Below, piece by piece: positions 15,659-39,904 of a stretch of DNA of 51,180 nucleotides. This DNA is from Gammaproteobacteria bacterium. GTDB lineage: Bacteria > Pseudomonadota > Gammaproteobacteria > GCA-001735895. The stretch covers positions 1-51,180 of the forward strand of contig JAOTYD010000022.1 of the NCBI GenBank assembly GCA_029862005.1. The letters are read 5' to 3'. Position 1 is the stretch's first letter, and the number at the start of each line of letters is the position of its first letter. Position numbers and translations under genes: made by a program. The notes below the pieces were generated by a model. The model had not been told where the DNA came from and did not search any database. It saw only the letters and a list, made by a program, of their open reading frames with translations.

Positions 15659-17077
15659 ATGGAACAAAACAGAATGAAGAAAATCAACCTGATTCTTTGC
15701 CATAGCCTCGTGTTTGTCCTTGTTGGCTGTGCCAGTACAAAAGAAGTAGAGCCGTTATCGGCTGATGAATTGAAACAGGCAGTTGCCGAGGTCGAGGGAC
15801 TTATAAAAGAGGCCGACATTAACCAGGCCGAGTTGCTGTCCTACAAGGAATACACGAAAGGATCGAATTTTCTGGGGAAAGCACAACGGGGCCTATCGGG
15901 CAATTATCAAGCCGATTACATCCTCAAAAACGCGGCTGAGGGCAAAGCCCAATTGCAGCAAGCACTAAAAAACACCCGGACCAGAACGCCTAACGCCACC
16001 CGTATACTTGAAGCGAGGAAGGCTGCACTCGACGCCGGTTTGAAAGGCAGCACAGAGATTGCAAGCGCAATGGTTGATGTCGATGAAGACTTAACCGATG
16101 AAACAGACAATTTTTCACGCGCCCTCGAACCGCAGGAATTCTCGGAATTTCAAAAGAAATACCTCGAACTGGAGACCAGGGCAGTCCAGTTCAGGGAGCT
16201 TGATGCGATTAAACAGGCCAACCAGAAAGCTGCCGGTCAAGACGCAAGAAAACTTGCACCGGATTCGCTGAGAACCGCTTTACTGGACGTCAACGAAGCT
16301 GAAAACATCATCGCCCAGAGTCCCCGCGATCCCAAGGTCTACGAGCTCAGCGTAACCATAGCGGAAGAAAGCTCCGTTTTGCTGACAGATGTAATGGACG
16401 TGATTTTAAACGCCCCGGGAACGCCGGAAGATATCGCATTAAAAATTGTTCAACAGAACAGGGAGTTAGAAAAACTCTCTGCAAATGTTGGCAGTCTGCA
16501 ACAGAACCTGGAGTCGACCCAGTCCAATTTGATGGAGACGGAAGGCGCGCTGAAGCAACAGAACCTGGAATTGGAGTCGACCCGGTCAAATTTACAGGAA
16601 ACCGAGAGCGCGCTGCTGCTGCAAAACCAGGAACTGGAGAAATCTTCCACGCAAGTCAGGTTCCAGCGAGCCATGGATCAGGCGGTAAAAGAATTTCCCG
16701 ATGACGAAGCATCGGTTTATCAGCAGGGCAGCAAATTGATTTTCAGGCTCAAGAAAATTAACTTCGCAACCGGTTCTGCCACGATTCCGGTCGCGTCGAA
16801 ACCACTGCTGGCGAAGGTCAACGACATCATCCGATTCGTCGGCGCAGAACTGGTTGCCGTGGAAGGCCATACCGACTCGGTTGGATCCGCCGAACTGAAC
16901 AAAAGCCTTTCGACCAAGCGGGCAATTTCGGTCGCAAACTACCTGTCATCCCTCGGGGGCGGCTACAAGATCGGCTATGTCGGATACGGTGAGTCCAGAC
17001 CGATTGTCACCAACGAGACCAAAGAAGGTCGTGCGATTAACCGGCGGGTTGACCTGGTGGTAACTGCCAGGAAGTAG
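15659..17077 (+). CDS. OmpA-family peptidoglycan-binding lipoprotein with DUF4398-like N-terminus
   Basis: Up to 472 residues; the Met at 15674 (MKKINLIL) is the likelier start. The signal ends in a lipobox, LVGC, so the protein is an outer-membrane lipoprotein. The N-terminal region resembles DUF4398, a helical domain. Residues about 255-335 are a coiled coil made of two or three copies of a unit around QNLESTQSNLMETEGAL. The C-terminal ~115 residues are an OmpA domain with INFATGSATI and VEGHTDSVGSAELNKSLSTKRA, and the NRRVDLVV end, which binds peptidoglycan. It probably ties the outer membrane to the cell wall. It converges on the motor-like operon, and a partnership with that operon is possible. 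Confidence 0.88.
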   Translation: MEQNRMKKINLILCHSLVFVLVGCASTKEVEPLSADELKQAVAEVEGLIKEADINQAELLSYKEYTKGSNFLGKAQRGLSGNYQADYILKNAAEGKAQLQQALKNTRTRTPNATRILEARKAALDAGLKGSTEIASAMVDVDEDLTDETDNFSRALEPQEFSEFQKKYLELETRAVQFRELDAIKQANQKAAGQDARKLAPDSLRTALLDVNEAENIIAQSPRDPKVYELSVTIAEESSVLLTDVMDVILNAPGTPEDIALKIVQQNRELEKLSANVGSLQQNLESTQSNLMETEGALKQQNLELESTRSNLQETESALLLQNQELEKSSTQVRFQRAMDQAVKEFPDDEASVYQQGSKLIFRLKKINFATGSATIPVASKPLLAKVNDIIRFVGAELVAVEGHTDSVGSAELNKSLSTKRAISVANYLSSLGGGYKIGYVGYGESRPIVTNETKEGRAINRRVDLVVTARK

Positions 17078-17095: not shown

Positions 17096-17593
17096 TCAAC
17101 CGTCTTCCGGTTCAATAGTCGATTTACGAGACTTGATATCTCGCTGCACGGACTCAAATTCGATTTCAGGTTTTGCACCTGATCCTCCAGCCCGCGGTTT
17201 GCCCACGAATCGTTCCCCCTGCTGCTGGCGCCGTATCGTATCGTCAACCCGCTGATGCAGCAGCTTGTTGTAGGGCAATCGAAACGAGCGTGGCACGAGC
17301 TGATCACTGTCGAGATCCCTGAGCCAGAGATAAATACCGCCAGCCTCATCGGTTTTCAGATCCGGTTCGATGACGATACTGCTAATCAATTCGAAACTCG
17401 GGGGAATACCGTTTGCAGCCGGCCATCCGAGATAATCCTGCAGCGCATTGTAATGCCAGAGGTAGAATCCGAGGCACAGGGACGCCAGCACCAGTTTCAG
17501 CCCGGCGCCAATTTCACTTTTAAAAATGGCCAGCAACACCAGGCTCAGTAAAAAAACGTAGGCCAGGCCGAGCGCAATGACCGACGTCGTCAC
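17096..17593 (-). CDS. Hypothetical membrane protein, third gene of the motor-like operon
   Basis: A 165-residue protein with two N-terminal membrane helices (about 3-24 and 29-50) and a hydrophilic tail of about 110 residues, basic near RQQQGERFVGKPRAGG. No family recognised. Its ATG overlaps the TGA of the gene before it by 4 bases, so it is translated with the ExbB- and ExbD-like proteins and likely belongs to the same complex. Helix-tail topology would be compatible with an accessory coupling subunit, but this is inference. Confidence 0.75.
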   Translation of the reverse strand: MTTSVIALGLAYVFLLSLVLLAIFKSEIGAGLKLVLASLCLGFYLWHYNALQDYLGWPAANGIPPSFELISSIVIEPDLKTDEAGGIYLWLRDLDSDQLVPRSFRLPYNKLLHQRVDDTIRRQQQGERFVGKPRAGGSGAKPEIEFESVQRDIKSRKSTIEPEDG

Positions 17594-18231
17594 AGCGATT
17601 GCCCCGAATCCGATTCAAGCTGCTCGGGATCGAGCCGGTATGGGGTCAGTATCTTGAATAAATGGTTCATGGAAACAATTTCACCGTTACCATCGAGTTC
17701 GAAGCGCAGTACCGTCTTTTCATCGTCTACCTTGTCCAGAACCATCTGGTCGATATAAACCAGCCGCAACACCGGGTTGACCTTTTCGATCTTGATCACC
17801 GCTTTCACCGGCTGGTTACTGATCGACTGATAATAATGGAGATTGACGATGTATTCCCCTGAAATAATGCCGCGAATCGTGACCACTTCCTGGTTGATTG
17901 GATGTATCACCTTTTTACCGTTTATCATGACCGTGTCATTCAGGTCACCGCGATCGTCTCGATCGAGGTTGAGCCAGCCGGCTTCCTTGCGCAGATACGA
18001 CACCGTTTCGCGGTAAGGATCCTGAACCCACAGGTCCACGTCATCGGGCTGATCCTCCGGCCAACTCACGGTAATAATGTACTCGGCCTTGTAGTTGATG
18101 TTGCCGAGCTTGGCGATCGGATTCATGAACATGATGGCAATAAAGAACAACAGGGTAAAACCAAGCAGGGTATTGAACAACAGGTCCGTGAATGGATCCG
18201 TCAATTGATGATGGCGCCGCGCCGCCCTCAT
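17590..18231 (-). CDS. MotB/ExbD-position protein with a YfaP-like periplasmic domain
   Basis: A 213-residue single-span protein. The N-terminal helix (about 15-36) is preceded by DPFTDLLFNTLLGF, in which an Asp just before the hydrophobic run sits where ExbD/TolR/MotB carry their proton-binding Asp. The periplasmic part starts with DDVDLWVQDPYRE and continues with LNLDRDDRGDLND. This resembles the beta-sandwich DUF2135/YfaP domain rather than the usual ExbD or OmpA-type domain. It overlaps both neighbours by 4 bases (ATGA). Likely the moving or anchoring half of a proton-driven complex of unknown purpose. Confidence 0.75.
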   Translation of the reverse strand: MRAARRHHQLTDPFTDLLFNTLLGFTLLFFIAIMFMNPIAKLGNINYKAEYIITVSWPEDQPDDVDLWVQDPYRETVSYLRKEAGWLNLDRDDRGDLNDTVMINGKKVIHPINQEVVTIRGIISGEYIVNLHYYQSISNQPVKAVIKIEKVNPVLRLVYIDQMVLDKVDDEKTVLRFELDGNGEIVSMNHLFKILTPYRLDPEQLESDSGQSL

Positions 18232-18881
18232 TTCGTCCTGATCTGGTAGGTATGTTCGCGCACATCATCAAGCAGGTTATCCACGCCCCAGTCGAGAAGC
18301 TGGTACTTGATGTTCAGCAATACCCCGCAACTCATGCCGGTCAGGGTGGTGAACAGCGCAACCTTCATGCCGCCACTCATTTGCGTGAGCAGTTTCTGCA
18401 TCACGTTGATATCAATACTGTGCAGATCGACCAGCGAGCCCAGCATGAAAATAAAGCCGATCACGGTGCCGAGCAAACCCAGTTTGAGCATCAGGTCCGC
18501 GATCACGTAGCCAAACCTGAATTGCCCGCGACAACGGCCGTCGAGCACATCGATCAAGATCTCTCCCGACTCGTCGCTTTCGTTAGATGGTTGCTGAAGT
18601 AGTGCAAAATAACGCCGCACGTGACTGCGGACCCTGCCGGTAGATGCTTCAGCGCTCAACTCGTTACTCTCGATCGACAGCAAATACGACACCAGCATCA
18701 CGTGCAGGCTGGCCACCAGGTAAATCAACAGAATCGCGCGTGAAATGAAACTGTAATCCTCGGCCAGCAAGGTTTGCAGCAAGCCCGTATCGATCAGCAG
18801 GTAAAACACAAACAGTTCGATACCCAGCAGACCGCTGCATAGCAACATCAGGCCGAAAGGCTTGTCGATAATTGATTTCAT
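18228..18881 (-). CDS. MotA/TolQ/ExbB-family proton channel protein
   Basis: A 217-residue membrane protein with four hydrophobic segments (about 10-30, 45-67, 127-152, 170-190). The family signature is clear: GLLGTVIGFIFMLGSL before the third segment, and ALFTTLTGMSCGVLLNIKYQLL in the fourth. Such proteins form pentameric channels that convert proton flow into motion together with a MotB/ExbD partner, which is encoded next in the operon. No tonB, tolA or flagellar genes are near. It starts an operon divergent from the MNP-repeat protein gene, with operator 2 between them. Confidence 0.85.
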   Translation of the reverse strand: MKSIIDKPFGLMLLCSGLLGIELFVFYLLIDTGLLQTLLAEDYSFISRAILLIYLVASLHVMLVSYLLSIESNELSAEASTGRVRSHVRRYFALLQQPSNESDESGEILIDVLDGRCRGQFRFGYVIADLMLKLGLLGTVIGFIFMLGSLVDLHSIDINVMQKLLTQMSGGMKVALFTTLTGMSCGVLLNIKYQLLDWGVDNLLDDVREHTYQIRTK

Positions 18882-18952: not shown

Positions 18953-18964
18953 TCACGGCCGTGA
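18953..18964. promoter_or_regulatory. 12-bp perfect palindrome TCACGGCCGTGA
   Basis: A self-complementary site between the divergent motor-like operon and the MNP-repeat gene, about 72 bases upstream of the motor operon start. It is distinct from operator 2 and could be a second regulator site. No family is assigned. Confidence 0.35.
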
Positions 18965-19009
18965 ATATATACCTAATACCCCCACTACCTATCCCAGAAT
19001 AGTTATTTG

Positions 19010-19031
19010 TATATTAGGCTTTACTAATATA
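19010..19031. promoter_or_regulatory. Operator 2: TATATTAG-N6-CTAATATA
   Basis: Both arms are identical to operator 1 and the spacer length is the same (GCTTTA here, AGTTTT there). On the plus strand the right arm merges into a perfect -10 box (TATAAT, 19028-19033) for the MNP-repeat gene, so binding would block that promoter. The divergent motor-like operon may also respond. Confidence 0.78.
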
Positions 19032-19062
19032 ATGAAATCTCATTTTTTAAGGGGATCTAATC

Positions 19063-19683
19063 ATGATCAAGAAAATTATTTTACCATTAGTACTGTTATT
19101 TGGCCTGGGCAGTGGAACTGCTTTCGCTACCGAAGCACCAGCCACCAACCCGGCTCAATCTGCCGAAATGTTTAATCCGTTTGCCTGGATGGGCATGATG
19201 AATGCCGGCGTTCCCAATGTTCAGCAAATGAACCTGGCGCGCCCCGAAGGTTACCAGGTGTTTATGAATCCGATGAATTACGGCCAGTTCATGAACCCGG
19301 CGACCTACGGACAATTCATGACGCCTCAGTTCTACATGCAGTTTGCCGATCCAAACAACATGATGGCCTGGATGAATCCCGCTGCCTACAGCGCGTATAT
19401 GAATCCGGCTTCTTACATGCAGATGATGAATCCGATGGCATACATGCAGTTCATGAATCCTGGCACCTACATGCAGCCCATGAACCCGGCTAACTACCAG
19501 GTATACATGGATCCTAATACCTACATGTCCTGGATGAACCCGAATGCATACATTCCGGGTGGCACCACCAGCGCGAGCTATACCAACCCTGCTGCTGGTT
19601 TTAACTGGTTCGATCCAAATGCCTGGACCAGCATGATGGCACCCCAGGCCCAGGCTCAGCCGCAACAACAACCACAGCAGTAA
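19063..19683 (+). CDS. Secreted Met-Asn-Pro nonapeptide-repeat protein
   Basis: A 206-residue protein. A signal peptide (1-22, FAT/EAP) is followed by a central array (residues 65-163) of eleven gap-free 9-residue units of the form x-Q-[FYW]-M-N-P-x-[ATN]-Y. Degenerate units flank it (FNPFAW at 38-42, FDPNAW at 183-188), and there is a Gln/Pro tail. It is very rich in Met, Asn, Pro and Tyr, with no Cys. ATG follows a strong AAGGGGA ribosome-binding site. I know no characterised family. Regular aromatic repeats suggest a self-assembling or surface/structural protein, with sulfur-globule envelope proteins as one analogy; the Met content could also bind copper. It shares an operator type with the RND/DUF255 pair. 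Confidence 0.85.
   Translation: MIKKIILPLVLLFGLGSGTAFATEAPATNPAQSAEMFNPFAWMGMMNAGVPNVQQMNLARPEGYQVFMNPMNYGQFMNPATYGQFMTPQFYMQFADPNNMMAWMNPAAYSAYMNPASYMQMMNPMAYMQFMNPGTYMQPMNPANYQVYMDPNTYMSWMNPNAYIPGGTTSASYTNPAAGFNWFDPNAWTSMMAPQAQAQPQQQPQQ
19255..19551 (+). repeat. Eleven coding 27-bp repeats (9-residue MNP units)
   Basis: Every unit is exactly 27 bases and begins in register. Units 1-11 end in Tyr, except unit 4, which ends in Met. MNP is exact in 8 of 11 units; the others read MTP, ADP and MDP. At the DNA level the units have diverged at third positions, which suggests selection on the protein rather than a recent expansion. Confidence 0.9.
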
Positions 19684-19747: not shown

Positions 19748-20302
19748 ATGGCTAAAAAGCTTCCCGCATTCACGTTTCTCCTCTGCCTCCTGCCAACGCT
19801 ACTACAGGCAGCGTCTCCACGAGATCCATACCAGTACTTTTTCGAACAAAGCCTCGGCGACCTGACCGAAGAGCTCGAAATAGCGCGCGAACAGGGAAAG
19901 CAGGGGATTTTCCTGTTCTTCGAAATGGACGAATGCCCGTTTTGCCATCGCATGAAACAGACGGTGCTGAACCAACCCGAGGTACAGGACTATTTCCGGC
20001 AGAACTTTCATTCGCTGACGGTCGATATTGAGGGCGATGTCGAGATCGTCGATTTTGCGGGCCTGGAAATCACGCAGAAGGAATTTGCCCGCCAGTACCG
20101 GGTTCGAGCCACGCCGATGCTGGCCTTCTTCGACCTCGACGGTAAGCAGATCTTCAAGTATATCGGCGCGCCGTCCGGAACCCGGGAGTTCATGTGGATG
20201 GGCGAATACATCGTAAACCAGGTTTACTTGCAAAAAGACGACTCGGGACGCAACATCCGTTTTACACGCTACAAACGAATGAAACAGAAAGCAACGCTGT
20301 AG
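19748..20302 (+). CDS. Periplasmic thioredoxin-fold protein (SoxW-like)
   Basis: A 184-residue protein; ATG 19748 is chosen because it opens a signal peptide (MAKKLPAFTFLLCLLPTLLQA). The redox motif C-P-F-C lies in EMDECPFCHRMKQ, and the cis-Pro segment in RVRATPMLAFFDLDG. The layout fits the thioredoxin-like proteins of sulfur-oxidation loci (SoxW/SoxS type) and DUF255-related proteins, which reduce disulfides or persulfides in the periplasm. It follows the MNP-repeat gene by 64 bases on the same strand and may be co-transcribed. The CPFCH string is a thioredoxin motif, not a heme site. Confidence 0.85.
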   Translation: MAKKLPAFTFLLCLLPTLLQAASPRDPYQYFFEQSLGDLTEELEIAREQGKQGIFLFFEMDECPFCHRMKQTVLNQPEVQDYFRQNFHSLTVDIEGDVEIVDFAGLEITQKEFARQYRVRATPMLAFFDLDGKQIFKYIGAPSGTREFMWMGEYIVNQVYLQKDDSGRNIRFTRYKRMKQKATL

Positions 20303-25271: not shown

Positions 25272-26288
25272 TCAGCCTGTTTTCCGCTCCACCAGGTTAA
25301 ATTTAAGGATAAAGTGCACAAAGAGACCCAGCAGGCCAATCATCGCGGTCGCGAGCAACCACGGGCGAGTCCAGTCATAATCTACTTTGTATCCCATCCA
25401 GGTGGACAATTTTTCATAGCGAAGAATTCCGCCAGGCAATTCTAGTTCATCACCTGGCCGCAATGTATAGCGATGATCCTGATATCGCAGAACTAGCTGA
25501 TGCTGTTGCGGCACCTGAAAATTAAACTCCCGATCCTCAGGTAACACATTCTCTTCGATCTTCAGATACGCCCAAAGCTTGGTATCGGTTTCCGGTATCG
25601 TCCATTCCAAAGCCTGCTCGAATTCGTGAGTTGGATAAGCAGGCAAATGAATGCTGCCGACGACTTTTGATAAACTGGCAAATGGTTGCCACTCGAACAC
25701 CGGGGCGTAACCCTTGTTATGCGAGGTATAAAACCGATAGTGGCCTATTATCAAAGGCACGTGATCACCTATCTCCAGTGTTTGCTGCAAGCCGTCAGCT
25801 GTGGTTAGCATCAACTGATTAACCGTTTTATCCCTTTTGATCCCTGCGTGATAACGAATCTGAAAACCCAGGTTTGTAAATCGGATTGCTGACAGCCCGT
25901 AACGGTGCCACGGCCCCTGCTGGACATTTTCCAATTGTCCGGAAAATTCTTCGTGCTCGGCGAGTTCCAGCGTGGCCTTGAAAAAACTCATCCTGCCCGT
26001 GAATGCCAACAGAACCAGCGCGATCAATGCAAAATGAAATATCATCAGCGGCCAGTTATTTTTCAGGATATCTCGAGTTGCCAGCGCCAGTAAAAAATTC
26101 ATTATCAGCAATCCCGTCGGCAGCGCGATTATCCAGATTCTTTGCGGCAGCGAAACCTGGTAATAAACCACGATCGCTAGCGCAAGCACGAACAATAACA
26201 GCAAGGTGCTGCGGTTAGACGCCAATGCATCTACCAGGCCGAGCCGTGGCCGCGGAGCAGCGCTAGGGTGGATTTTCGCAATTTTCAC
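25272..26288 (-). CDS. ResB-like cytochrome c maturation protein
   Basis: A 338-residue inner-membrane protein with three N-terminal membrane helices (about 28-48, 53-70, 80-100), a large periplasmic beta-rich domain (about 105-310) and one C-terminal helix (LLATAMIGLLGLFVHFILKF). This is the layout of ResB/CcsB, the partner of CcsA in system II cytochrome c assembly, which brings heme and reduced apocytochrome together. It is the last gene of the cytochrome series and overlaps the end of the 11-heme gene by 26 bases (GTG start at 26288). Its CcsA partner is at 48080. It is shorter than ordinary ResB. Confidence 0.82.
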   Translation of the reverse strand: MKIAKIHPSAAPRPRLGLVDALASNRSTLLLLFVLALAIVVYYQVSLPQRIWIIALPTGLLIMNFLLALATRDILKNNWPLMIFHFALIALVLLAFTGRMSFFKATLELAEHEEFSGQLENVQQGPWHRYGLSAIRFTNLGFQIRYHAGIKRDKTVNQLMLTTADGLQQTLEIGDHVPLIIGHYRFYTSHNKGYAPVFEWQPFASLSKVVGSIHLPAYPTHEFEQALEWTIPETDTKLWAYLKIEENVLPEDREFNFQVPQQHQLVLRYQDHRYTLRPGDELELPGGILRYEKLSTWMGYKVDYDWTRPWLLATAMIGLLGLFVHFILKFNLVERKTG

Positions 26289-28674
26289 TGCTGTCCCTCA
26301 TCCAGTCACGTCCAATTTCACCATTGCCCGGCGCTCCCGCCGAGCCGCAATTGGTCTCTTCCCAGTTGCCACTGGTGGCAAAGCTGACGATCTTCAGCAT
26401 CGCGTTCAGGTAGTAAGGACCGTTGGTATATCCGGCGGTCGTATTATTCCTAACCTGGGTGCCAGCAGGCTGCCCTCCCTCGGGCCCGACGTCGTTCAGG
26501 TTGACCAGCAAACCCTTGTTCTTCCAGCCATGGGGCACCGCGACGTGGCACCAGCTACAGCGCAATCGACCGATCTTGTCGGCGTGATATGAATGCAGGT
26601 TGGGATCCCTGGAGCCGCCGAAGCCGCTGGCGCCATCGCCCCGGGTCGCATAGAGATCGTGATCGTGGCACTTGAAGCACAGGTCGTTGGTATTGCCGGT
26701 ACCGGTGTTCTGGCTCCAGTCTCCCTTGAGAATAAAATTATTGGTCGAACCGTGCGGCCCCCAGGGGTTGCCATTCTCGCCACCCGACGGTGTCGAGGTG
26801 CCGATACCGGTGTTCGATCCATGACAATCGGAGCAATACATAGTCTGATTGCCAACATCAGCATTGCCATTCCACGGTGACTCAAAATTAGCCGAATTGG
26901 TGTTACGAATCGCCAGCGTGCGGCCAGTGTTATCGATCACCGGATGCCAGGAGCGATGATTATTGCTCGAATAGGCACTCGCGGCGCCGGAATCGAGGGT
27001 GCTTACTTCGCCCTTGTGACTTAAAGGCGCCTGGAATTCAATTGCCTGGTTGGTGTATTCGGTTACGTCATTGATGCCAGATAGCGTATTGCCGCCAGTA
27101 TTGCCTAGCGTCGGCGGGTTGGCGCCATAGGCATAATCTGAATGACATTTCAAACAGATCTGATACTCGCGCGTCACATGCGCGCTGCCAACTGCCGTAC
27201 TGGCGCCGAATCCGCCATCGCCGCGTTTGACGATATAGCTAATCGGGAAATTGCCCGGATCGAAATTACTCGAACCGTATACGGGCTCGACGCCCCAACT
27301 CCCGCGCAGCACGCCGGACGCGATATTGGTATGCCCGGTCGCATGGTTATGGGTTCCCGCCTGGGCTGCGCCAGTATTGTTGAACAAACGATTCTTCAAC
27401 ACCCGGTGCGGGTTATGACAATCGGTACATTCGACATGACGGTTGCCGAGATTGAATCTAGATTTGTCCTCACTTAGATCGGCATCCAGAGCAGCATGGA
27501 TCTCACTCGCAGTCTGTTGATCGCTGTTGGTGATCGGCATGTGCGTCAAACCGGAAACAAAGTCAGATTTGATATCGGGCACCTGAAACGAAGCATTGCC
27601 CTGGCCATTGAGTACGCCGCCGTCGGCGGAGTGACAGGTGTAACAGGTTTCTTCGAGCGCCGCGTTACCGCCGGTCTTCGGGCTCAGAAAACTGTCGGTG
27701 CCTTCCCTCAACAGATGGCGCGACCCCTGCACCGTATGGGTGTCATGGCAGTTCAGGCAACTCGCCTGCCACACCGGTAAATTTAACGGGAACTCTCGTA
27801 AATTAGCCGCGGCTGTCGTATAGGTTTCATTGGCGACCTGCGGGTCGGCATGCGCCGACTGCGACCAGGCCAGACCCAGCTTGTCGTGACAGGCCAGGCA
27901 AATGATGTCGTTGGCATCATCGAAGTTACCGCCAGTAGCAAAACCCTCCTGGAAGCGATGCAGGCGCAAAAACTTGATGTTTTTGGTGATGTCGGAATCT
28001 CGAATGTGCGGATCGTGGCAGCTGGTGCATTGCAGCTGACCGTTTTCCAGTGGCACCAGTGGTTTGACGCCCGGCGCACGGTTGGCGATGTGGGCCTCGA
28101 ACGCGGGATTCCGTAACTCACCGTCGGCATTCGCCAGCGTACTGTCGTAGGTGAAGGATATCGGATGATCGTTGCTCAGATCGGTCCCAAGCTTACGTGT
28201 AAACCCGGTGTTATCGCCCCCACCGGAAGGCATGACCCCGCCGGCACCGGTGCCCGACATATTGATAGTCACGTTGCTCTGCGCGTTGACCACGTTAACC
28301 TGTCCAATTGCGATTGTGCCGTCATGGCAAGATAGGCACAGTTTCGAGCTGCCGCCCGGCGTGGCCGCGATATCGTTGGCATCGATGGTATCGGAAGTGT
28401 ATGGCGTATAGGCCGCGACAGAGGCCTGCCGATTCCATAGCGGTGCGTTGGGTATCGCCTCTGCCTGATGCGGAGTATGACAAAACACGCAAATCTGACT
28501 TTCGGTAACCGCCGTTATGCTGCCCGGGCCGCTAACCGACAAATTGTGCCGGGTATTGGCGGTATCGGAAATACGTGCCGCCTGATTTGCAAAACTGACG
28601 ACCAGCAGCATGAGCAGCAAACTGCCCGCCAGCATTAATCGACGTAAGCAAAGCAGTGGTCGGCAAGCATCCAT
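26263..28674 (-). CDS. Eleven-heme c-type cytochrome (doubled CXXCH type)
   Basis: An 803-residue exported cytochrome. ATG 28674 is chosen because it lies one base after the stop of the NHL gene and opens a signal sequence (MDACRPLLCLRRLMLAGSLLLMLLVVSFANQAA). Eleven CXXCH sites are spread along the chain: CVFCH, CLSCH, CTSCH, CLACH, CLNCH, CYTCH, CTDCH, CLKCH, CSDCH, CFKCH, CSWCH. The first three modules (NTRHNL...CVFCHTPH...PLWNR, CLSCHDGT, SNDHPI) align with the tetraheme protein at 36778, so the two are paralogous. About 120 residues after the last heme have none. It is a strong candidate for the large electron carrier of the cluster, periplasmic or at the cell surface. Confidence 0.9.
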   Translation of the reverse strand: MDACRPLLCLRRLMLAGSLLLMLLVVSFANQAARISDTANTRHNLSVSGPGSITAVTESQICVFCHTPHQAEAIPNAPLWNRQASVAAYTPYTSDTIDANDIAATPGGSSKLCLSCHDGTIAIGQVNVVNAQSNVTINMSGTGAGGVMPSGGGDNTGFTRKLGTDLSNDHPISFTYDSTLANADGELRNPAFEAHIANRAPGVKPLVPLENGQLQCTSCHDPHIRDSDITKNIKFLRLHRFQEGFATGGNFDDANDIICLACHDKLGLAWSQSAHADPQVANETYTTAAANLREFPLNLPVWQASCLNCHDTHTVQGSRHLLREGTDSFLSPKTGGNAALEETCYTCHSADGGVLNGQGNASFQVPDIKSDFVSGLTHMPITNSDQQTASEIHAALDADLSEDKSRFNLGNRHVECTDCHNPHRVLKNRLFNNTGAAQAGTHNHATGHTNIASGVLRGSWGVEPVYGSSNFDPGNFPISYIVKRGDGGFGASTAVGSAHVTREYQICLKCHSDYAYGANPPTLGNTGGNTLSGINDVTEYTNQAIEFQAPLSHKGEVSTLDSGAASAYSSNNHRSWHPVIDNTGRTLAIRNTNSANFESPWNGNADVGNQTMYCSDCHGSNTGIGTSTPSGGENGNPWGPHGSTNNFILKGDWSQNTGTGNTNDLCFKCHDHDLYATRGDGASGFGGSRDPNLHSYHADKIGRLRCSWCHVAVPHGWKNKGLLVNLNDVGPEGGQPAGTQVRNNTTAGYTNGPYYLNAMLKIVSFATSGNWEETNCGSAGAPGNGEIGRDWMRDSSENCENPP

Positions 28675-28675
28675 C

Positions 28676-29767
28676 CTAGTTATTCCCCAGGTACTGGAAC
28701 ATCGAAACCCGGCTGTTGAGCATATCCGAGACATAAATCCTGTCCTTGTCATCCACCCAGATACCGGTAGGTTGCGCAAACTGACCGGGCGCTGAGCCGG
28801 AACCCCCGATCGACATCAACAGGCTGCCCTGCGGATTGTAAATCAGGACATGATCATAATAACTCTCGGAAACATAAATATTACCATCCGAGTCGAGCGC
28901 AATTCCCTTGGGACGGGAGAAATTACCGACATACAATCCGCGATGACCAACGCTTTGCTTAAACCGGCCTTGCCGATCGAGTATTTGTATTCTTGCATTT
29001 AGCGAATCGACCACGTAAAGCCGGCCCAGCCGATAAACCAGATAAGTCGGATGATTAAACTGCGCTTCTCCAGTTCCCGCAACACCCCAGGTATCGAGCA
29101 ACTCCCCGCCTGGGCTAAACAACTTGATATCACCCGCGGCGGTATCGCTGATAAAAAACCTCTGATTATCCGGGTCATAGGCGATCCCGGTTGGCCGTTT
29201 CAATACCTCGTGGCCAAAGCTGTTGATCACTTCTCCAGTCAGGCTAAATTGATAAATCAGCGCCAACTCGGAATCGGTCACCCAGACCGAGTCTTCGGCG
29301 TGCGCAACGCCAATGGGACTTGGCAGAGAAATATTCAGACTGCGCTCGTTCCAGACGGCAAATTCACCGAGTATTTCATCGAACACAAAAATGGACTGCA
29401 GTCCTGGGTCGGTAATATAAATCTTGCCCCGGTTATCGGTGGCCACCTGCTGCGGGCGCAACAGGTCGAGCGGAGATATTTTTTTCGCATCCAGACCCAC
29501 GATGGCGGCCAACAGGCGCGCCAGACCACTGCGTTCCGGTGTATCGGCGCGATTGGACTCGCCGTAAATATGGCCGATAAAAGCATATCGGGGCACCGCC
29601 GGCAGGGACGGCCAGACCTGAATACCCCGATCGGTTTCGGCGATCCCGGGCATCTTGAACAAATGCTGGTTCGAAATCGTGCTACAGCCCGAAATCGTCA
29701 GTAAAAGCATTATTATCAGGGTTGTAAGCAAGTACCCCCTAGCCAATGGAGCGCAAATGGGGAACAT
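28676..29767 (-). CDS. NHL-repeat beta-propeller lipoprotein 1
   Basis: A 363-residue lipoprotein from ATG 29767 (a start at 29788 is possible). The signal ends in TISGC, a lipobox. The mature part has five to six NHL units with the RPQGIAVD/GxIYVSDxxNxRI pattern, for example HPTYLVYRLGRLYVVDSLNA and RPKGIALDSDGNIYVSES. It would form a six-bladed propeller at the membrane surface. It is homologous to the lipoprotein at 38728. Such propellers often scaffold cytochrome complexes, but this is inference. It sits between the triheme and 11-heme genes, with overlap at the upstream end and one base of spacing downstream. Confidence 0.88.
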   Translation of the reverse strand: MFPICAPLARGYLLTTLIIMLLLTISGCSTISNQHLFKMPGIAETDRGIQVWPSLPAVPRYAFIGHIYGESNRADTPERSGLARLLAAIVGLDAKKISPLDLLRPQQVATDNRGKIYITDPGLQSIFVFDEILGEFAVWNERSLNISLPSPIGVAHAEDSVWVTDSELALIYQFSLTGEVINSFGHEVLKRPTGIAYDPDNQRFFISDTAAGDIKLFSPGGELLDTWGVAGTGEAQFNHPTYLVYRLGRLYVVDSLNARIQILDRQGRFKQSVGHRGLYVGNFSRPKGIALDSDGNIYVSESYYDHVLIYNPQGSLLMSIGGSGSAPGQFAQPTGIWVDDKDRIYVSDMLNSRVSMFQYLGNN

Positions 29768-29781
29768 GGTCGAGCTGCGAT

Positions 29782-30189
29782 TTACCACCGTCCCGGCCCC
29801 GCAGTCTCACTGCCACCGCGAATACCGGTCTTCAGCCCGGGTTTACCTGAATGACAGAGGTGGCACTCCTCTACCGGCCAGGCGATTTTACCGTTGTGGC
29901 ACATGCCACAGTATTGCCCATCGATGATTTTTCCCATATCGATCTGATTCGCCCCGGCACGCATTTCAAATCCGAGCTCATGATGGCACACTTTGCAGCG
30001 AAAACGGATACGATGAAACCAGTGCGGGAAGATTACGGGGCGCATATCATTGGCCTCGGAAAGCCGGTTTAAAACCACATCGGCATATTCGGCATTGGCC
30101 TGTGGCGCAATACCTGCCAGTACCAGGAGCATTAGAATCAAGGGCCTGATCCTGGCTGATCTAAGGGGATGTGGAAACAGGAGTTTCAT
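29782..30189 (-). CDS. Triheme c7-type periplasmic cytochrome
   Basis: A 135-residue protein with a signal peptide (1-33, PQANA) and three CXXCH sites: CKVCH, CGMCH, CHLCH. The first is preceded by FPHWFHRIRFRCKVCH, whose His residues are likely distal heme ligands, as in c3/c7 triheme domains. It is a close paralog of the protein at 33492 (shared MRPV.FPHWFHRIRFRCKVCH and IIDG.YCG.CHNG). Small c7 cytochromes shuttle electrons across the periplasm. The Gly/Arg-rich tail (TGIRGGSETAGPGRW) is probably disordered. Confidence 0.9.
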   Translation of the reverse strand: MKLLFPHPLRSARIRPLILMLLVLAGIAPQANAEYADVVLNRLSEANDMRPVIFPHWFHRIRFRCKVCHHELGFEMRAGANQIDMGKIIDGQYCGMCHNGKIAWPVEECHLCHSGKPGLKTGIRGGSETAGPGRW

Positions 30190-30209
30190 GCTACAGACAA
30201 ACCGGCAGC

Positions 30210-30764
30210 TTACTGACTCGAAGTCAGATTCGGTTGCACGCCGGGCTTTCCGCTAAAGGTTTTCCTGACAACGCTGTGACAACGGTTGCACTCGGTCAGC
30301 GGAAACGCAACGGCACCATGACATTGCCCGCAATACTGACCGGAAAGTATGGCGAACATATTCATTGGATTGGCGTCGACTTTTTTCACGAAGATCCGGT
30401 CATGACAGTTGGCGCAGTCCAGCCACTCGGTATGCGGCTTATGCGGGAACATGACGAGCGGCAACTCACCTGTCTGATCCATAACGATATCCATATCCAG
30501 AATTTCGATCCTGGTCTCCGGGAAAATATTGGTGCGCGGCTCGATGTATCTTTCACGCAGCGCCCTGATCCAGGAAACCCGGTTACCGGCGCTATCCGGC
30601 GGCAACAGCGAAAGCGCGGTTTCGGGCTCCTGCAAAATACCGATTGCAGGGCTCAGGGGATCGTGCAATCCATCTTCAGACAGCGATTTCCAGCCCGGCT
30701 CAGCCCCCAGCAAGGCAAACCAGAGCCCGAGTGGAATAACAAGGATAAAACGCGAATATTTCAT
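30210..30764 (-). CDS. Triheme c7-type cytochrome with N-terminal extension
   Basis: A 184-residue exported protein (signal 1-20). After about 80 residues without heme sites comes a c7-type domain with CANCH, CGQCH and CNRCH, introduced by FPHKPHTEWLDCANCH. The heme domain and the preceding DPLSPAIGILQEP...RVSWIRAL region match the C-terminal part of the c5-c7 fusion at 32527 (SPGTLLLQEP, RVDWVKAL, PHKQHTEWLDCSNCH). The extension is therefore a conserved unit of this cluster. Twenty bases separate it from the next triheme gene. Confidence 0.88.
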   Translation of the reverse strand: MKYSRFILVIPLGLWFALLGAEPGWKSLSEDGLHDPLSPAIGILQEPETALSLLPPDSAGNRVSWIRALRERYIEPRTNIFPETRIEILDMDIVMDQTGELPLVMFPHKPHTEWLDCANCHDRIFVKKVDANPMNMFAILSGQYCGQCHGAVAFPLTECNRCHSVVRKTFSGKPGVQPNLTSSQ

Positions 30765-30778
30765 GATCGCTAATTCAA

Positions 30779-31633
30779 CTATCCGGGAATGTAAATTCCA
30801 GCACTGCGGATGGCGCGAACCAGTTGCCGTGTCGACTGTTCGAGTAGTTCGATAGCCTGCTCGTGCGCATCCTGACTGGCATACTGTTCCGCCTGCTGAC
30901 GCAGTAACCGGGCCTGCCCGACGAAGTCGGAAATTTTACTCTTCATGGCCTCCGATTTTTGTTTTTGATCAACCAGCAATCCAATCAACATACCGTGCGT
31001 ATCATTACGATCGATTTCGTAGAGATACTCCTCCTCCTTGCTTTTGAACTGTAACGAACGCACCAGCGTCTGCCCTGACCTGATCGATTCGATGGTGACC
31101 TTTAACAAATGATAGGCCTTGTCAATTTCGACCCTGGCCGCGACATTATTTCCCTGCTGCAACAAATCATCGGCCCGGCCGACCAGGGTGGCTAACTGAT
31201 CGTTAACCTTGCTCCTGACTTCGGTTTCGTTGTTTTCATCGGAAATGCGGTTAAATGCATCCTGTAGCGCAATCACCGATTCGCGGCGCTGACCGTAATT
31301 GACGATCTCCTTGTCTTCGCCCAGTGATGTCGGAGTCGCCAGTTTTATTGCTTCGAACATCAGCCTGGCGGACTGATTCAGAAAATCGGAGGCGGCTTTC
31401 TCGTCACCCGAGTCGATTTTGTCCTGCGCCTTTCGATACAGGTCCAATGCCTGCTTGCGCTTGTTCAGAGCATCGCTATTGCTGCTGTTAATGACCTGCC
31501 TGGCACCGGAAGACCGGTTTAGCAATCTATCCATATTTGGCAGCCGATCGACCGCGGCCGCCTGCAAATCCGTCGAAGCCGTCAGTATCGCTAACAACAG
31601 GATCGAGCTGGCGCTAAAAAATTTACTAGTCAT
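30779..31633 (-). CDS. Helical periplasmic protein, paralog 1
   Basis: A 284-residue exported protein (signal 1-25, LQAAA) that is almost wholly helical, with heptad-like and TPR-like stretches (RKAQDKIDSGDEKAASDFLN, QAEQYASQDAHEQAIELLEQS). It is homologous to the protein encoded just upstream (31645). Both share AYxLLKVTI-like and TLVxxLxFxxxxEEYxYxxxR segments and end in a hydrophobic LLxxxGI/V tail. No heme site and no Cys in the mature part. No known family; a scaffold or assembly factor for the cytochromes is a reasonable guess from position only. Confidence 0.8.
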   Translation of the reverse strand: MTSKFFSASSILLLAILTASTDLQAAAVDRLPNMDRLLNRSSGARQVINSSNSDALNKRKQALDLYRKAQDKIDSGDEKAASDFLNQSARLMFEAIKLATPTSLGEDKEIVNYGQRRESVIALQDAFNRISDENNETEVRSKVNDQLATLVGRADDLLQQGNNVAARVEIDKAYHLLKVTIESIRSGQTLVRSLQFKSKEEEYLYEIDRNDTHGMLIGLLVDQKQKSEAMKSKISDFVGQARLLRQQAEQYASQDAHEQAIELLEQSTRQLVRAIRSAGIYIPG

Positions 31634-31644
31634 AATAATCCATA

Positions 31645-32517
31645 TCAGATTTTGACCCCCAGTAATTTGAGCACTGCGGATAACTGGTTAATTGAATTGT
31701 CGAGTATCGAAATGGCCTCGGGGAACTGGCCCTGGGTTTCAAACTCTTCTGCGGCGTCGAGATTCAGCATCGAACTGTAGAGGTACTGGTCAGCCAGCTT
31801 TTGCGTTTGTTCCTCGACTACGCCCTGCGTCATGGCGATCTGCACCAGTTCCAGGTAGTGGTAGGCTCGATTGACCATGTACTGATACTCGTCCTGGACT
31901 GTTTCGAATTTGAGGTCGTAAACAACCAGGGTTTCATGACTGAATTCGTCTATCAGGGAAACTTTCAAGCGATAGGCATGTTCGAGCATTGCCATCGCCT
32001 CATCATAGGATTCGACTTCCGCCTGCCTGACTGCCTGATCGCGTAATGCGCTGATGCGCTCCAATTTTTTTTGCAACAGATCGTTTTCGAGTTCATCCAG
32101 ATTTCGCCACTCGGGTAAGGCGAACGAATCGAGTTGCTCGATGAAATGCCGGTACCTGCTCTTTTTTTGCTGCGACACACTGAGCAGCCGCGAACTGGCA
32201 CTGAGGTCTCGGAGTACGTAGTCGAGCACCGCTTCGGCTTCGAGATACTGGCCGCGATCGAAATATTCCTCACCCTTGAGGAAGTTTTCCGCTGCCCTCG
32301 CAAGCAACTCGCGGGCGACACTGTCGCCGCTTGCCTTGACCCGCTGCAACAGATCAGCGCTATGTAATATGTGGTTTACCATCTTAATCTTCTGCGCAAT
32401 TTTCTCGCCCACACCCTTGACGCCAGACGGATTAGCGACCGATTCTTCCTGCGCCTGAACCAGGTTCAGGTTAAATATCAGAAGCAGTGCTGGAATCGAT
32501 ATCCTCATCGTTCTCAT
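31645..32517 (-). CDS. Helical periplasmic protein, paralog 2
   Basis: A 290-residue exported protein (signal 1-22, LVQAQ). Like its neighbour it is helical, with repeats around ARAAENFLKGEEYFDRGQYLEAEAVL and DAAEEFETQGQFPEAISILDNS, which look like divergent TPR units with the small-residue positions kept. It is 11 bases from paralog 1 and 9 bases from the fusion cytochrome gene, so all are one operon. A tandem duplication with strong divergence is likely. Function not recognised. Confidence 0.8.
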   Translation of the reverse strand: MRTMRISIPALLLIFNLNLVQAQEESVANPSGVKGVGEKIAQKIKMVNHILHSADLLQRVKASGDSVARELLARAAENFLKGEEYFDRGQYLEAEAVLDYVLRDLSASSRLLSVSQQKKSRYRHFIEQLDSFALPEWRNLDELENDLLQKKLERISALRDQAVRQAEVESYDEAMAMLEHAYRLKVSLIDEFSHETLVVYDLKFETVQDEYQYMVNRAYHYLELVQIAMTQGVVEEQTQKLADQYLYSSMLNLDAAEEFETQGQFPEAISILDNSINQLSAVLKLLGVKI

Positions 32518-32526
32518 CTCTCGTAA

Positions 32527-33495
32527 TCAGTTCGTCTTGTTTTTCGCCTCTGTCTCGGTCGCTTTTTGCTTGGAGTGACATCTGCGGCATTCGGCGACCG
32601 GAAACGCAACCTTGCCATGACATACACCGCATTTCTGACCCAGCAGAATCGAAGCCATCGATATCTGGTTAGCGCCTTTTTGCGGGATGAAAATTGCCGG
32701 ATGGCAATTCGAACAATCCAGCCATTCGGTATGTTGCTTATGCGGATAAACGACATCCGGCATCGATCCCTTGACCTCGCGCACGATATTCAAATCCATT
32801 ACCACCGGTTTTGCGTCGTCGTTCAAACGCTCGTAGCGGGGTGATATTTCTCCACCTTCCAATGCCTTTACCCAATCTACCCGGTTACCTGATTTCGATT
32901 TGCTCAAGGAGTCGAAAGCGACCCTGGGCTCCTGTAATAGCAGCGTGCCGGGACTTTCTGAATCGTGAATGCCATCCTTGGCCGGCGGCAGGTTCCATTC
33001 GGAGGAAGACTTCATCAGCCGATTAAACTGGTTCACACTACTGGCCAGTGTTTTTTTGGCGGGTGCTTTTTTCACAACCGCGGCGGTATCGGTCTTCTTT
33101 TTGGATGCCTCCTCTGTAGCTGGCTTTTCTGCGTATTGATCGAAACCCGAACTGACCAGCATGTAGACAACCGCTTTTTTAATTTCTTCGTCCTTAATTG
33201 TCGGATTGCCTCCCTTAGCCGGCATATTTTTGAAACCCTTTAACGCATGCGTCATCAACACCTCGAGACCCTGTTGTTCGCGCGCGCTCCAGTCTTCCCG
33301 CTTACCCAGCCTTGGCGCCTGTAACACGCCAGCCGTATGACAGGCGCCACAGGAGGCATCGTAAACCTGTTTGCCGTTGCGGACTTCGTCGGTGGCGCGC
33401 ACCGTGGCGGTTGTGTAAAAAACAAGAAATATTAAAACGATGATCTGAAACAGGCCGGCTTCAGCAAAAACGATTACATTGCTTTGCCTGATCAT
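32527..33495 (-). CDS. Class I cytochrome c5-like domain fused to triheme c7 domain
   Basis: A 322-residue exported tetraheme protein. ATG 33495 overlaps the stop of the previous gene (ATGA), which fixes the start. An export signal (about 1-32) is followed by a monoheme c5-like domain with CGACH and a likely Met ligand in KNMPAKGG. A linker rich in Lys, Ala and Thr (about 130-165) leads to a domain matching the 30210 protein, with CSNCH, CGVCH and CRRCH. The fusion puts a high-potential type of heme beside three bis-His hemes, which could act as an electron branch or gate. Confidence 0.88.
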   Translation of the reverse strand: MIRQSNVIVFAEAGLFQIIVLIFLVFYTTATVRATDEVRNGKQVYDASCGACHTAGVLQAPRLGKREDWSAREQQGLEVLMTHALKGFKNMPAKGGNPTIKDEEIKKAVVYMLVSSGFDQYAEKPATEEASKKKTDTAAVVKKAPAKKTLASSVNQFNRLMKSSSEWNLPPAKDGIHDSESPGTLLLQEPRVAFDSLSKSKSGNRVDWVKALEGGEISPRYERLNDDAKPVVMDLNIVREVKGSMPDVVYPHKQHTEWLDCSNCHPAIFIPQKGANQISMASILLGQKCGVCHGKVAFPVAECRRCHSKQKATETEAKNKTN

Positions 33496-33857
33496 TGCTC
33501 GCTCTCTGCCTTTTTTCTTTTTGTCGTGGTCGTCAGTTTCGACGCGGTGCTCTGATGCACCTGGGTTGGTTGCCCGGCTTTCCCCGTATGGCAAACATCA
33601 CAGTTCTCGACCGACCAGGCCACCTCGCCGTTATGGCAGGCACCGCAGTACTCACCATCGATAATTTTCAGCATGTTGATCTGGTTGCCGCCGGCCTCCA
33701 TCTTGAATCCGAGGTCGGCATGACATACCTTGCACCTGAAACGAATGCGATGAAACCAGTGCGGAAAAACAACCGGCCGCATTCCAGCCGCATCCGAGTA
33801 GTTGTTTATCAGTACATCACCATATTCGGCGCTAACCATGGCCGGTGTCGCCAGCAA
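33492..33857 (-). CDS. Triheme c7-type cytochrome, start region out of frame
   Basis: The in-frame ORF begins at a TTG (33857) and has three heme sites, CKVCH, CGACH, CDVCH, in a domain closely matching the 29782 protein. It lacks a whole signal peptide. A perfect start, AGGGG then ATG at 33895, lies upstream but is one base out of frame across a run of five A residues. With six A residues it would read MLKKLQAHRLFLSLLATPAM, a normal signal peptide. So this is a homopolymer error in the sequence, a recent frameshift, or slippage. The C-terminus is basic (TTTTKRKKAESEQ). Confidence 0.85.
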   Translation of the reverse strand: MLATPAMVSAEYGDVLINNYSDAAGMRPVVFPHWFHRIRFRCKVCHADLGFKMEAGGNQINMLKIIDGEYCGACHNGEVAWSVENCDVCHTGKAGQPTQVHQSTASKLTTTTKRKKAESEQ

Positions 33858-33910
33858 GGAAAGAAAAAGACGATGCGCTTGCAGCTTTTTAACATGCAGA
33901 TTCCCCTATC

Positions 33911-35671
33911 TCACAGATCGCCAAACGACCTCGTTAACTGAAACATAAACAATCGATCGTAGTCATTGCCGATCTTGATAAAATCGATATCGAGCTGAGC
34001 TTCGAGCCGCCCGATCCGGTAAAGCAGTGAGTTTTCCCATGAAGCTTGCTTCGCCGAATCGTTATCTTCGATCAAACGCTCGGTCTCGGACTGGCGCTCG
34101 CTCAATTTCAGCAATGAAATAAAAAACATTCCGGGCAGCTGAAAAACCCGGCTGCGACGATACTCGAGCTGACCATTGCTGACCGTCTGCTCACTTTGCA
34201 TGCCTTCGGTTTCCTGTCTCGAGTATTGCAGGGTGGCATTGCCGCTCAGTTGCGAATAGCGCGTGATACTGTTGGCTCCCGTGTACTGCAAATTAACCAG
34301 CTGGAAATTATCGTCATCGCGATTCAGCGAACGCGAATCACTGATAAATAAGCGCACCAGGTTCTGTTGCTTGAGCGCCGTGTTAGACCAGGTAATCGAA
34401 TACGAGTGATCGATACTCTTTTCATCCTCCCTTTCGGACTGAGACGTGTAGGTAAACGATTGGGTCAGATTGCTTCTGAGTTGATACTCACCCGCGTTCG
34501 AATAATCGTTAAGCAGCGAGTGACTGAATTGAGTCGCTAGCGAGTGCTCCCGTTCGACATCACCATGTACGTTGTTATAGGCAGTTCCAGCACTCCAGCC
34601 GTAATCGCCAAGCCCGGTGCCAACTCGATCAGAGGTATATCGTGCCGCCAGTGCCTCGTTAGCAGTAAACAGGTCTCTGCTTTCATCCTCGAAGTAATTC
34701 GCGTTAATTGATTCGCTGAGTTGCAGGTTGTCGGAGTAATCGTAGACAAGCCCCTGGTTCAGGTTGGCCGTTTCCGCCTCGCTTTCCCCGGCATCTGTCA
34801 CCATTACGTCGTCGGATTGCTGCTGCTGCCGGGTTTCGGATAGCCGCAGGCTACCGGTCAATTTCAGATCCTTCCGATTCCGCGGATGCCAGGATGCAAA
34901 GCTCGATAGCTGGGAAGTCTCAATATCGTTGCTCGATTCGGAAAAATCGTTTTCAGTCGAAGACGTCGATAGCAGGTTTTCAATGGACCAGTTAGTTTTA
35001 TCTCCGTAGAAGTGATCCAGCGTAATTGAATAGGTTTCTGCCCGCTCATCCGAAGAACGACTATCAACCGTGGCGCGTTTCAAGTCAGTTTCGAGCACAT
35101 GATCGCCAATCCGGTCATCAGCGGACAACAGCAGGCTTTCAGCGGTGAAATTGTTACGCTCGCTGTTGTCCTGCTGATTGTTTTCAAACTCGGCGAGATA
35201 ATTGTGCCTGCCGTCCAGGCTACGGTATTGCTGGCTGACGCCATATTCGGTAGTTTCGATATCGAAGCGTAACGAGTTGTTGTCAAACTGATCGCGACCC
35301 TCGATATAGTAGGCGCGAAAAGGAAAACGACTGGTTGGGAACAAACTGAAGTAAAAATCGCCGGTGGCAAACTCGTCTTGCGATTTTCCCTGGCCCTCAT
35401 CTTCATTTTCCTCAACCGACAGGCTGAGGCTACCGTTAACCAACGCAAACCAGGGCCGCCAGATATAGCTACTGGCGCTGATCGTGCCCGTGTTCAACCA
35501 GTTAGTATTTTCACTATCGCCATCGACGCTCTCGCGCACGCGATAGGCACTGCTCAGTTCCCCCCAGACTCGTACTGGTCCGCGGTCCTGCGCAGCCAAT
35601 GCGCCGGATATACTAGTCATAACCAGGAGCAGAAGCAGATTGGGAGACAGTATTCTCGGGATGATCCACAC
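33911..35671 (-). CDS. Large outer-membrane beta-barrel protein
   Basis: A 586-residue protein with a signal peptide (about 1-27, GALAA). The remainder is alternating amphipathic strands, with many Ser, Asn, Asp, Gln and aromatic residues, and it ends LFMFQLTRSFGDL, close to a terminal barrel strand with an aromatic residue near the end. No Cys in the mature part. About 22-28 strands would fit. There is no clear similarity to MtrB, but size and position, in an operon with triheme cytochromes, resemble the porin of porin-cytochrome conduits. GTG start at 35671: the frame is closed just upstream. Related unassigned barrels are common in Gram-negatives. Confidence 0.8.
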   Translation of the reverse strand: MWIIPRILSPNLLLLLVMTSISGALAAQDRGPVRVWGELSSAYRVRESVDGDSENTNWLNTGTISASSYIWRPWFALVNGSLSLSVEENEDEGQGKSQDEFATGDFYFSLFPTSRFPFRAYYIEGRDQFDNNSLRFDIETTEYGVSQQYRSLDGRHNYLAEFENNQQDNSERNNFTAESLLLSADDRIGDHVLETDLKRATVDSRSSDERAETYSITLDHFYGDKTNWSIENLLSTSSTENDFSESSNDIETSQLSSFASWHPRNRKDLKLTGSLRLSETRQQQQSDDVMVTDAGESEAETANLNQGLVYDYSDNLQLSESINANYFEDESRDLFTANEALAARYTSDRVGTGLGDYGWSAGTAYNNVHGDVEREHSLATQFSHSLLNDYSNAGEYQLRSNLTQSFTYTSQSEREDEKSIDHSYSITWSNTALKQQNLVRLFISDSRSLNRDDDNFQLVNLQYTGANSITRYSQLSGNATLQYSRQETEGMQSEQTVSNGQLEYRRSRVFQLPGMFFISLLKLSERQSETERLIEDNDSAKQASWENSLLYRIGRLEAQLDIDFIKIGNDYDRLFMFQLTRSFGDL

Positions 35672-35699
35672 GATATTTCATGACAAACGTAGAGGCTAA

Positions 35700-36659: not shown

Positions 36660-36700
36660 GACTTTCCCCTTTTAACAATTACTCCGTATTGCCCCTTTAT

Positions 36701-36751
36701 AAAAAACGACTCCAGCGCCGACGGCCTTCGCACAGCCGCCGACGCTGGAGT
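36701..36751 (-). terminator. Terminator or attenuator after the tetraheme gene
   Basis: Read on the minus strand, ACTCCAGCGTCGGCGGC (36751-36735) pairs with its partner (36725-36709) at 15 of 17 positions and is followed by six U residues (36706-36701). Only 41 bases then remain before the isomerase start codon, with no obvious promoter. Partial read-through would feed the downstream genes while giving the tetraheme gene extra mRNA. Confidence 0.82.
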
Positions 36752-36777
36752 TCAAGGGGCTAGATGGCCTTAACTCC

Positions 36778-37626: not shown

Positions 37627-37675
37627 TGCTCGATCCCCTTTGCTCGTTATGAATTTTTAAATTCATATTAGGAAT

Positions 37676-37691
37676 TGCAGCAACCATGCCA
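37676..37691 (-). promoter_or_regulatory. Sigma-54 promoter of the tetraheme cytochrome series
   Basis: The minus strand reads TGGCAT-GGTTG-CTGCA, close to the -24/-12 consensus TGGCAC-N5-TTGCA, with GG and GC at the required spacing. The start point would be near 37664, 38 bases before the tetraheme ATG. A TTTTCTC/GAGAAAA palindrome lies about 160 bases further upstream. Confidence 0.6.
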
Positions 37692-37815
37692 AAATCTCGA
37701 CGTCGCGACACATACTTCGCCCATCCAGATAAAGACAATAAAATCAGTGCCTTAGCGACTAAAAAAATATTTGGCTTGCGGCAACGAACGCACGTCGGGA
37801 AATTTTTCCAGACAG

Positions 37816-37835
37816 TTTTCTCGCGATTGAGAAAA
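37816..37835. promoter_or_regulatory. TTTTCTC-N6-GAGAAAA palindrome, candidate activator site
   Basis: A 7-bp perfect inverted repeat, about 160 bases upstream of the sigma-54 start predicted for the tetraheme series, where enhancer-binding proteins usually bind. A similar palindrome at 38679 and partial ones at 41993-42141 suggest a shared site for the response regulator at 42784. Confidence 0.5.
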
Positions 37836-37896
37836 ATTAGTTCGCGATATTCTCGATTCATAGAATGTTCTTGACAGGCCGTCATCACGAATCGAG

Positions 37897-38559: not shown

Positions 38560-38597
38560 GATGTCTACCTCGATTTGGTTATCAATGGAATAAGGCT

Positions 38598-38613
38598 GGC
38601 AATTTTCGCGCCA
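38598..38613 (-). promoter_or_regulatory. Sigma-54 promoter of the NrfJ-like gene
   Basis: The minus strand reads TGGCGC-GAAAA-TTGCC, which has nine of eleven consensus positions including the GG and GC pairs. The start would fall near 38586, 27 bases before the ATG at 38559. Confidence 0.6.
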
Positions 38614-39875: not shown

Positions 39876-39904
39876 ACCCGTCGTAAACGGTGGTAAACGC
39901 TTTA

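Follow-up and report, generated by a model that had tools for sequence, protein, structure and literature searches.

The window, that is, the whole 51,180-nucleotide stretch of DNA analysed here, contains a real gene on its forward strand (19063–19683). It encodes a 206-residue repeat protein of about 21 kDa that is predicted to be exported, and its orthologues are 76–91% identical, with dN/dS values of 0.05–0.08. We have named this protein MNP9, and the gene in the window is its A-type. Residues 1–22 (MIKKIILPLVLLFGLGSGTAFA; 19063–19128, + strand) read as a Sec-type signal peptide, with n, h and c regions and an AFA site that are conserved among the relatives in alignment A1, and export via Sec is predicted; the first-pass annotation had likewise called the protein secreted. 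Eleven nine-residue units follow, in frame and without a gap, from 19255 to 19551 (+ strand). They had been described as eleven exact copies of x-Q-[FYW]-M-N-P-x-x-Y; the period of nine is indeed exact, but the copies differ from one another (units 1–6: QVFMNPMNY, GQFMNPATY, GQFMTPQFY, MQFADPNNM, MAWMNPAAY and SAYMNPASY; units 7–11: MQMMNPMAY, MQFMNPGTY, MQPMNPANY, QVYMDPNTY and MSWMNPNAY). MNPxxY is intact in eight of them, the deviants being MTPQFY, ADPNNM and MDPNTY, and only GQFMNPATY and MQFMNPGTY carry the full motif. The invariant feature is a proline at every ninth residue, in a ladder of twelve consecutive prolines (P61 to P160; 19243–19551, + strand) that begins one unit before the array as originally delimited. 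When the mature protein was shuffled 20,000 times, the longest proline run at this spacing was seven (typically two), versus the 12 observed, and the array's motif score of 42 exceeds the highest value reached in 5,000 shuffles (23); a chance origin of the nine-residue period is thus excluded. At the DNA level, the copies are only 73–77% alike. Methionine accounts for 20 of the 99 array residues, cysteine is absent from those A- and B-type members checked, and GRAVY is −0.55 for the mature protein and −0.50 for the array. Degenerate units had been noted on both sides, and NP/DP elements are found there: FNPFAWM at residues 37–43, or FNPFAWMG with residue 44 (NPFAWMG, residues 38–44, spans 19174–19194, + strand), and NWFDPNAW at residues 181–188 (19603–19626, + strand). 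W42 and M43 in the first element and W182 and F183 in the second are nearly invariant in A1.

A conserved promoter block (18963–19033, + strand), recognised by eye in an alignment of 12 loci, comprises a TATATA-type box (18963–18978), an inverted repeat (GAATANNTATTY / GAATANNTATTC, within 18993–19009) and TAATATAAT (19025–19033). Its core is present in 22 loci, a number in which orthologues are counted and some genes were fetched more than once, and a regulon search of the organism's own genome found it at this MNP9 gene alone. A scan for consensus promoters and terminators gave no match at the gene. The conservation of the block and the uniqueness of its core in the genome suggest that MNP9 is specifically regulated by some factor.

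Downstream of MNP9 lies an exported thioredoxin-like gene (19748–20302, + strand; Pfam Thioredoxin_2) that is kept beside A-type MNP9, followed by TolC- and HlyD-like genes, and an RND pump gene is found about 6.6 kb from MNP9. No sulfur gene adjoins MNP9 in the window, and the A- and C-type loci contain no classical sulfur gene. A divergent three-gene set (17096–18881), consisting of a MotA/TolQ/ExbB-like gene and two genes with no clear family, is also kept beside A-type MNP9 in other species. The OmpA-domain gene at 15659–17077 contains a 63-bp tandem repeat (16508–16639) within a Leu/Glu/Gln-rich, coiled-coil-like stretch. A cluster at 26263–41991 was read by eye as encoding multiheme (CxxCH-rich) cytochromes together with NHL-type beta-propeller and peptidyl-prolyl isomerase-like proteins, and it resembles, again by eye only, an extracellular electron-transfer conduit. 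Beside it, two adjoining genes (45080–47438) encode probably exported beta-propellers like those of two-component regulators.

Distribution and selection of the MNP9 family

MNP9 constitutes an undescribed, extremely conserved protein family. It has no acceptable match in Pfam, NCBIfam, PHROGs or PDB sequences, and a literature search for a described family with a nine-residue period found nothing, in agreement with the first-pass annotation, which knew of none. The sole Pfam match, to JmjN (PF02375), reached 18 bits against a gathering cut-off of 26, over 16 residues and with no stretch above it, and was rejected as compositional noise. Restriction of the gene to a single strain had been envisaged, and this is not the case: MNP9 is carried by 17 of the 31 genomes of the genus (the organism's own and 30 congeners) and by many other lineages. 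In an even sample of the class, seven of 369 Gammaproteobacteria, from six families, carry the gene, and among 398 genomes sampled across the phylum the organism's own was the sole carrier. When 84,980 species genomes were scanned with two conserved peptide patterns, which remote members may escape, 49 MNP9 loci were obtained, all from Gammaproteobacteria, mostly uncultured, and nearly all from MAGs; among the carriers are an Arenicellales MAG and the Gamma3 symbiont of Olavius algarvensis. No MNP9 relatives were found among the viral contigs searched.

The organism possesses three paralogues: the A-type gene of the window, a B-type gene (contig C14, locus L002) and a C-type gene (contig C37, locus L003). 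Window-type genes, B-type genes and those C-type genes that the tree includes each form a supported clade. The array is the most constrained portion of the gene, with a dN/dS of about 0.011 in the closest congeners (dS about 0.7–1, dN about 0.01), the value for the whole gene being about 0.06. In two congeneric loci (L004 and L013), each of the eleven units best matches the unit at its own position, and exactly twelve prolines at spacing nine are found in 23 of 44 diverse relatives, other GTDB families included. This constraint, the unit-by-unit positional match and the shared proline count show that the array is not a product of slippage. MNP9 is an old protein under strong purifying selection.

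Predicted structure of the array

An AlphaFold2 model of the array, built from 44 diverse rows, has a mean pLDDT of 74, with values of about 75–84 across the array, and is of moderate confidence; it superseded a first run on the full protein (30 rows, pLDDT 49), from which the helix pattern only was taken. The model places in each unit one helix of about eight residues (two turns), kinked or broken at each NP. A repeated turn or ribbon had been expected from the regular proline and aromatic positions; the prediction gives instead short helices, each begun by an N-cap Asn and a Pro. Among the 44 relatives, N, D or T precedes the proline, Y occurs at +3, F or W at −3 and M at −2. As modelled, the unit is a classic N-cap plus proline helix start, and the tyrosine, the aromatic residue and the methionine of each unit probably share one helix face. 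Foldseek searches of the PDB and of viral structure sets (VIA, BFVD) returned no fold match for the array model. Such a ladder of nine-residue helices, as predicted, could be worth attention as a minimal repeat scaffold.

Association with sulfur oxidation and companion proteins

With dsrA called by TIGR02064 (E ≤ 1e-60) in the class sample, all seven MNP9 carriers possess the gene, compared with 117 of the 369 genomes (hypergeometric 2.8e-4). Counting one genome per family, which is the sole provision for kinship in a class sample that is shallow at family level (6 carrier families), dsrA is present in 6/6 carriers (p 9e-4). All 20 genomes reached via further MNP9 loci have dsrA, 18 of them over the cut-off; six of the 20 repeat earlier-screened congeners, with identical hits, and 14 are new. 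Within the genus, dsrA is clear in 14 of the 17 carriers, the exceptions being G016 (94% complete, with C-type MNP9 only), G028 (71% complete) and G025 (a weak fragment only). Conversely, several dsrA-positive congeners have no MNP9 (e.g. G004, G005, G008, G010, G011, G017, G020 and G026), so MNP9 is not obligatory. No soxC over the cut-off is found in 27 of 30 carriers, and three have soxC; as a base rate is lacking, this pattern is no more than consistent with a truncated, sulfur-accumulating Sox system. FccB was considered as a sole tracker of A-type MNP9 and rejected, many A-type carriers being devoid of it.

Linkage to sulfur genes is found at other loci of the family. The B-type MNP9 of the organism's own genome is separated by about 5 kb from FccB (flavocytochrome c sulfide dehydrogenase; PF09242 and PF21706), at a locus that also encodes SoxY (over the cut-off), several small c-type cytochromes, a second FCSD-like flavoprotein and a rhodanese-like protein, the last identified in the relative L052. 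L052 itself has SoxY and SoxZ over the cut-off and a DUF302 protein. In G049 (locus L115), from the unrelated family f15, SoxY and SoxZ (over the cut-off) are encoded no more than about 5 kb from two divergent MNP9 genes; the locus also encodes a DUF302 protein, a Sulf_transp protein, a monoheme MDP/MNP protein and a member of the companion family described below. At L079, MNP9 is near DsrE2 (NF047629 over the cut-off), a DUF302 gene and a relative, from the same cluster, of the thioredoxin-like gene found downstream in the window; in G248, a DUF302 gene neighbours MNP9. The link between MNP9 and sulfur oxidation is strong, and the comparison with sulfur-globule envelope proteins, put forward in the first-pass annotation as an analogy only, is now backed by genomics, through the co-occurrence with dsrA and the linkage to soxYZ, fccAB and dsrE2.

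Several kinds of protein accompany MNP9. DUF302 genes stand beside it in four lineages (L115:12672–13679, L052:11867–12589, L079:10238–10993 and L086:2225–3295). Monoheme c-type proteins (CxxCH) with MDPxxW and MNP elements adjoin it in unrelated lineages (L115:11598–12590, in G049, and L002:473–1006), and that of G049 contains a long irregular MNPMM array. A companion NP-repeat family, A3, has signal-like N-termini, is apparently exported and has no match in Pfam. It adjoins MNP9 in L043, L044, L057, L059 and G122/L050, is near it in L047, and is present in 27 of the 28 MNP9 carriers tested and in none of four non-carrier congeners. The organism's own genome has two A3 copies (L111:9579–10259 and L112:2071–2751), each flanked by PII/ammonium-transporter-like and comM-like genes, apparently through duplication of a block, or because one bin combines two strains. 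A3 and the monoheme proteins resemble MNP9 in combining DP or NP with two residues and an aromatic, in occurring in the same genomes and in being apparently exported; in contrast to MNP9, the elements of A3 are more widely and irregularly spaced and its cysteines are conserved, and the monoheme proteins contain CxxCH.

Possible functions and comparison with sulfur globule proteins

A structural role in sulfur storage is favoured, because MNP9 resembles the sulfur globule proteins (Sgp) in its putative export signal and regular prolines, is encoded near enzymes that form zero-valent sulfur in the periplasm and is found in genomes with the pathway that uses this sulfur up. By analogy with Sgp, there is about an even chance that MNP9 serves in the periplasm as a structural protein of stored zero-valent sulfur in rDsr-type sulfur-oxidising Gammaproteobacteria, acting as an Sgp-like globule coat or as a sulfur holder. 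The protein would be exported by Sec and matured, and its mature chain would fold into some twelve two-turn helices in succession, with Asn/Asp/Thr plus Pro caps and kinks at each NP. From helix geometry, Tyr (+3 from Pro), Phe/Trp/Tyr (+6) and Met (+7) should lie on one face, giving a repeating aromatic and thioether stripe, with Asn, Gln, Ala, Thr and Ser on the other side of the helix. This stripe might adsorb to hydrophobic S8 or polysulfane produced by periplasmic FccAB and truncated Sox, with the polar face toward the water and rods lying side by side to coat or template a globule. The cytoplasmic rDsr route, for which consumption of stored sulfur is established, would later use the sulfur held by MNP9. 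Further parts could be supplied by A3 and by the monoheme MDP/MNP and DUF302 proteins. The GRAVY of −0.55, the dsrA-positive congeners with no MNP9, the lack of dsrA in G016, the A- and C-type loci devoid of classical sulfur genes, the three soxC carriers, the shallow sampling of families and the moderate confidence of the fold model raise doubts about a storage role.

Conservation of individual units, at a dN/dS of about 0.01, exceeds the apparent need of a plain coat and so leaves room for a periplasmic scaffold, in which the helix face would bind and join the carriers and cytochromes of sulfide and thiosulfate oxidation (SoxYZ, FccAB and the monoheme MDP protein) rather than cover sulfur. 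The B-type and G049 loci do encode SoxYZ and monoheme or c-type proteins that share NP elements, but such partners are missing from the A- and C-type loci and many A-type carriers have no FccB, and we consider this role rather unlikely. The surroundings of the A-type gene, with its RND, TolC, HlyD and OmpA-like envelope genes, would also suit a general structural or surface protein of the cell envelope in this lineage, its link to sulfur oxidation being inherited history; MNP9 and dsrA do occur apart, in several congeners and in G016. Such a general function is nevertheless improbable, given the presence of dsrA in all independent carrier families and the sox and dsrE2 linkage at independent loci. 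Methionine-rich stretches can bind Cu(I), and the methionine content of the array had prompted the proposal that it binds copper; a periplasmic copper- or silver-binding protein is, however, very unlikely, since no copper gene recurs near the family loci (among recurrent neighbours, by clustering and annotation) and the position of the methionine is structurally fixed, where the helix ends ahead of the N-cap. Finally, the biased and repetitive composition might recall a low-complexity translation made by slippage, with no selected function, but this is ruled out by the dN/dS and the unit count common to several families, and the conserved promoter and the paralogues also stand against it.

It is a tentative possibility that MNP9 represents a new repeat fold evolved for elemental sulfur (a ladder of nine-residue, two-turn helices with N-cap Asn-Pro and an aromatic/thioether stripe), and that, with its NP-repeat, monoheme and DUF302 companions, it makes up a previously unknown apparatus for sulfur storage or electron-wired sulfur handling in uncultured sulfur-oxidising Gammaproteobacteria and animal symbioses. 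What is known of sulfur globule proteins comes from a small number of cultured lineages, and these proteins have no domain in common, so that globule formation in the uncultured sulfur oxidisers of sediments and symbioses offers little genetic handle. MNP9 can be recognised by its series of up to twelve prolines at spacing nine and has conserved companions; with this marker, the identity of the coat or holder of stored sulfur in these organisms becomes directly testable. MNP9 is a good candidate for a protein of a new kind, one coating or handling stored sulfur.

Sgp proteins have Sec signals, repetitive sequences and evenly spaced prolines, and possess no common domain (PMC10386293; PMC7356093). 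SgpA, SgpB and SgpC of Allochromatium vinosum are, like MNP9 with its predicted Sec export, small, Sec-exported, repetitive proteins with regular prolines from rDsr sulfur oxidisers (PMC10386293). The Sgp proteins of A. vinosum are described as extremely hydrophobic, and SgpA–C are of 11–13 kDa, whereas MNP9 is larger, has a negative GRAVY and shows a strict nine-residue proline ladder. SgpD (Alvin_2515) of the same species, which has a signal peptide (putative in MNP9) and, like MNP9, repeats and periodic prolines, has been shown on globules, and its gene adjoins that of a hydrophobe/amphiphile exporter (PMC10386293), a next-door position that may be compared with the more distant RND pump gene of the window. 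SgpD is reported almost exclusively from Chromatiaceae, and its prolines follow P-x2-P and P-x4-P patterns with long predicted helices, in contrast to the P-x8-P pattern and predicted two-turn helices of MNP9. The Beggiatoa leptomitoformis globule envelope protein ALG67575.1 has an export signal, as MNP9 is predicted to have, and likewise regular prolines and no recognised domain, and a strain in which its gene is disrupted by a transposon does not accumulate sulfur (PMC7356093); it is of 15 kDa and, unlike MNP9, has no nine-residue ladder described. In this comparison with SgpA–D and ALG67575.1, made on their described features, MNP9 shares the repeats with evenly spaced prolines and the rDsr sulfur-oxidiser hosts (with the exception of G016), and lacks the strong hydrophobicity. 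For these reasons, MNP9 is termed Sgp-like in its working rather than a member of Sgp, relative to which it may be a separate invention.
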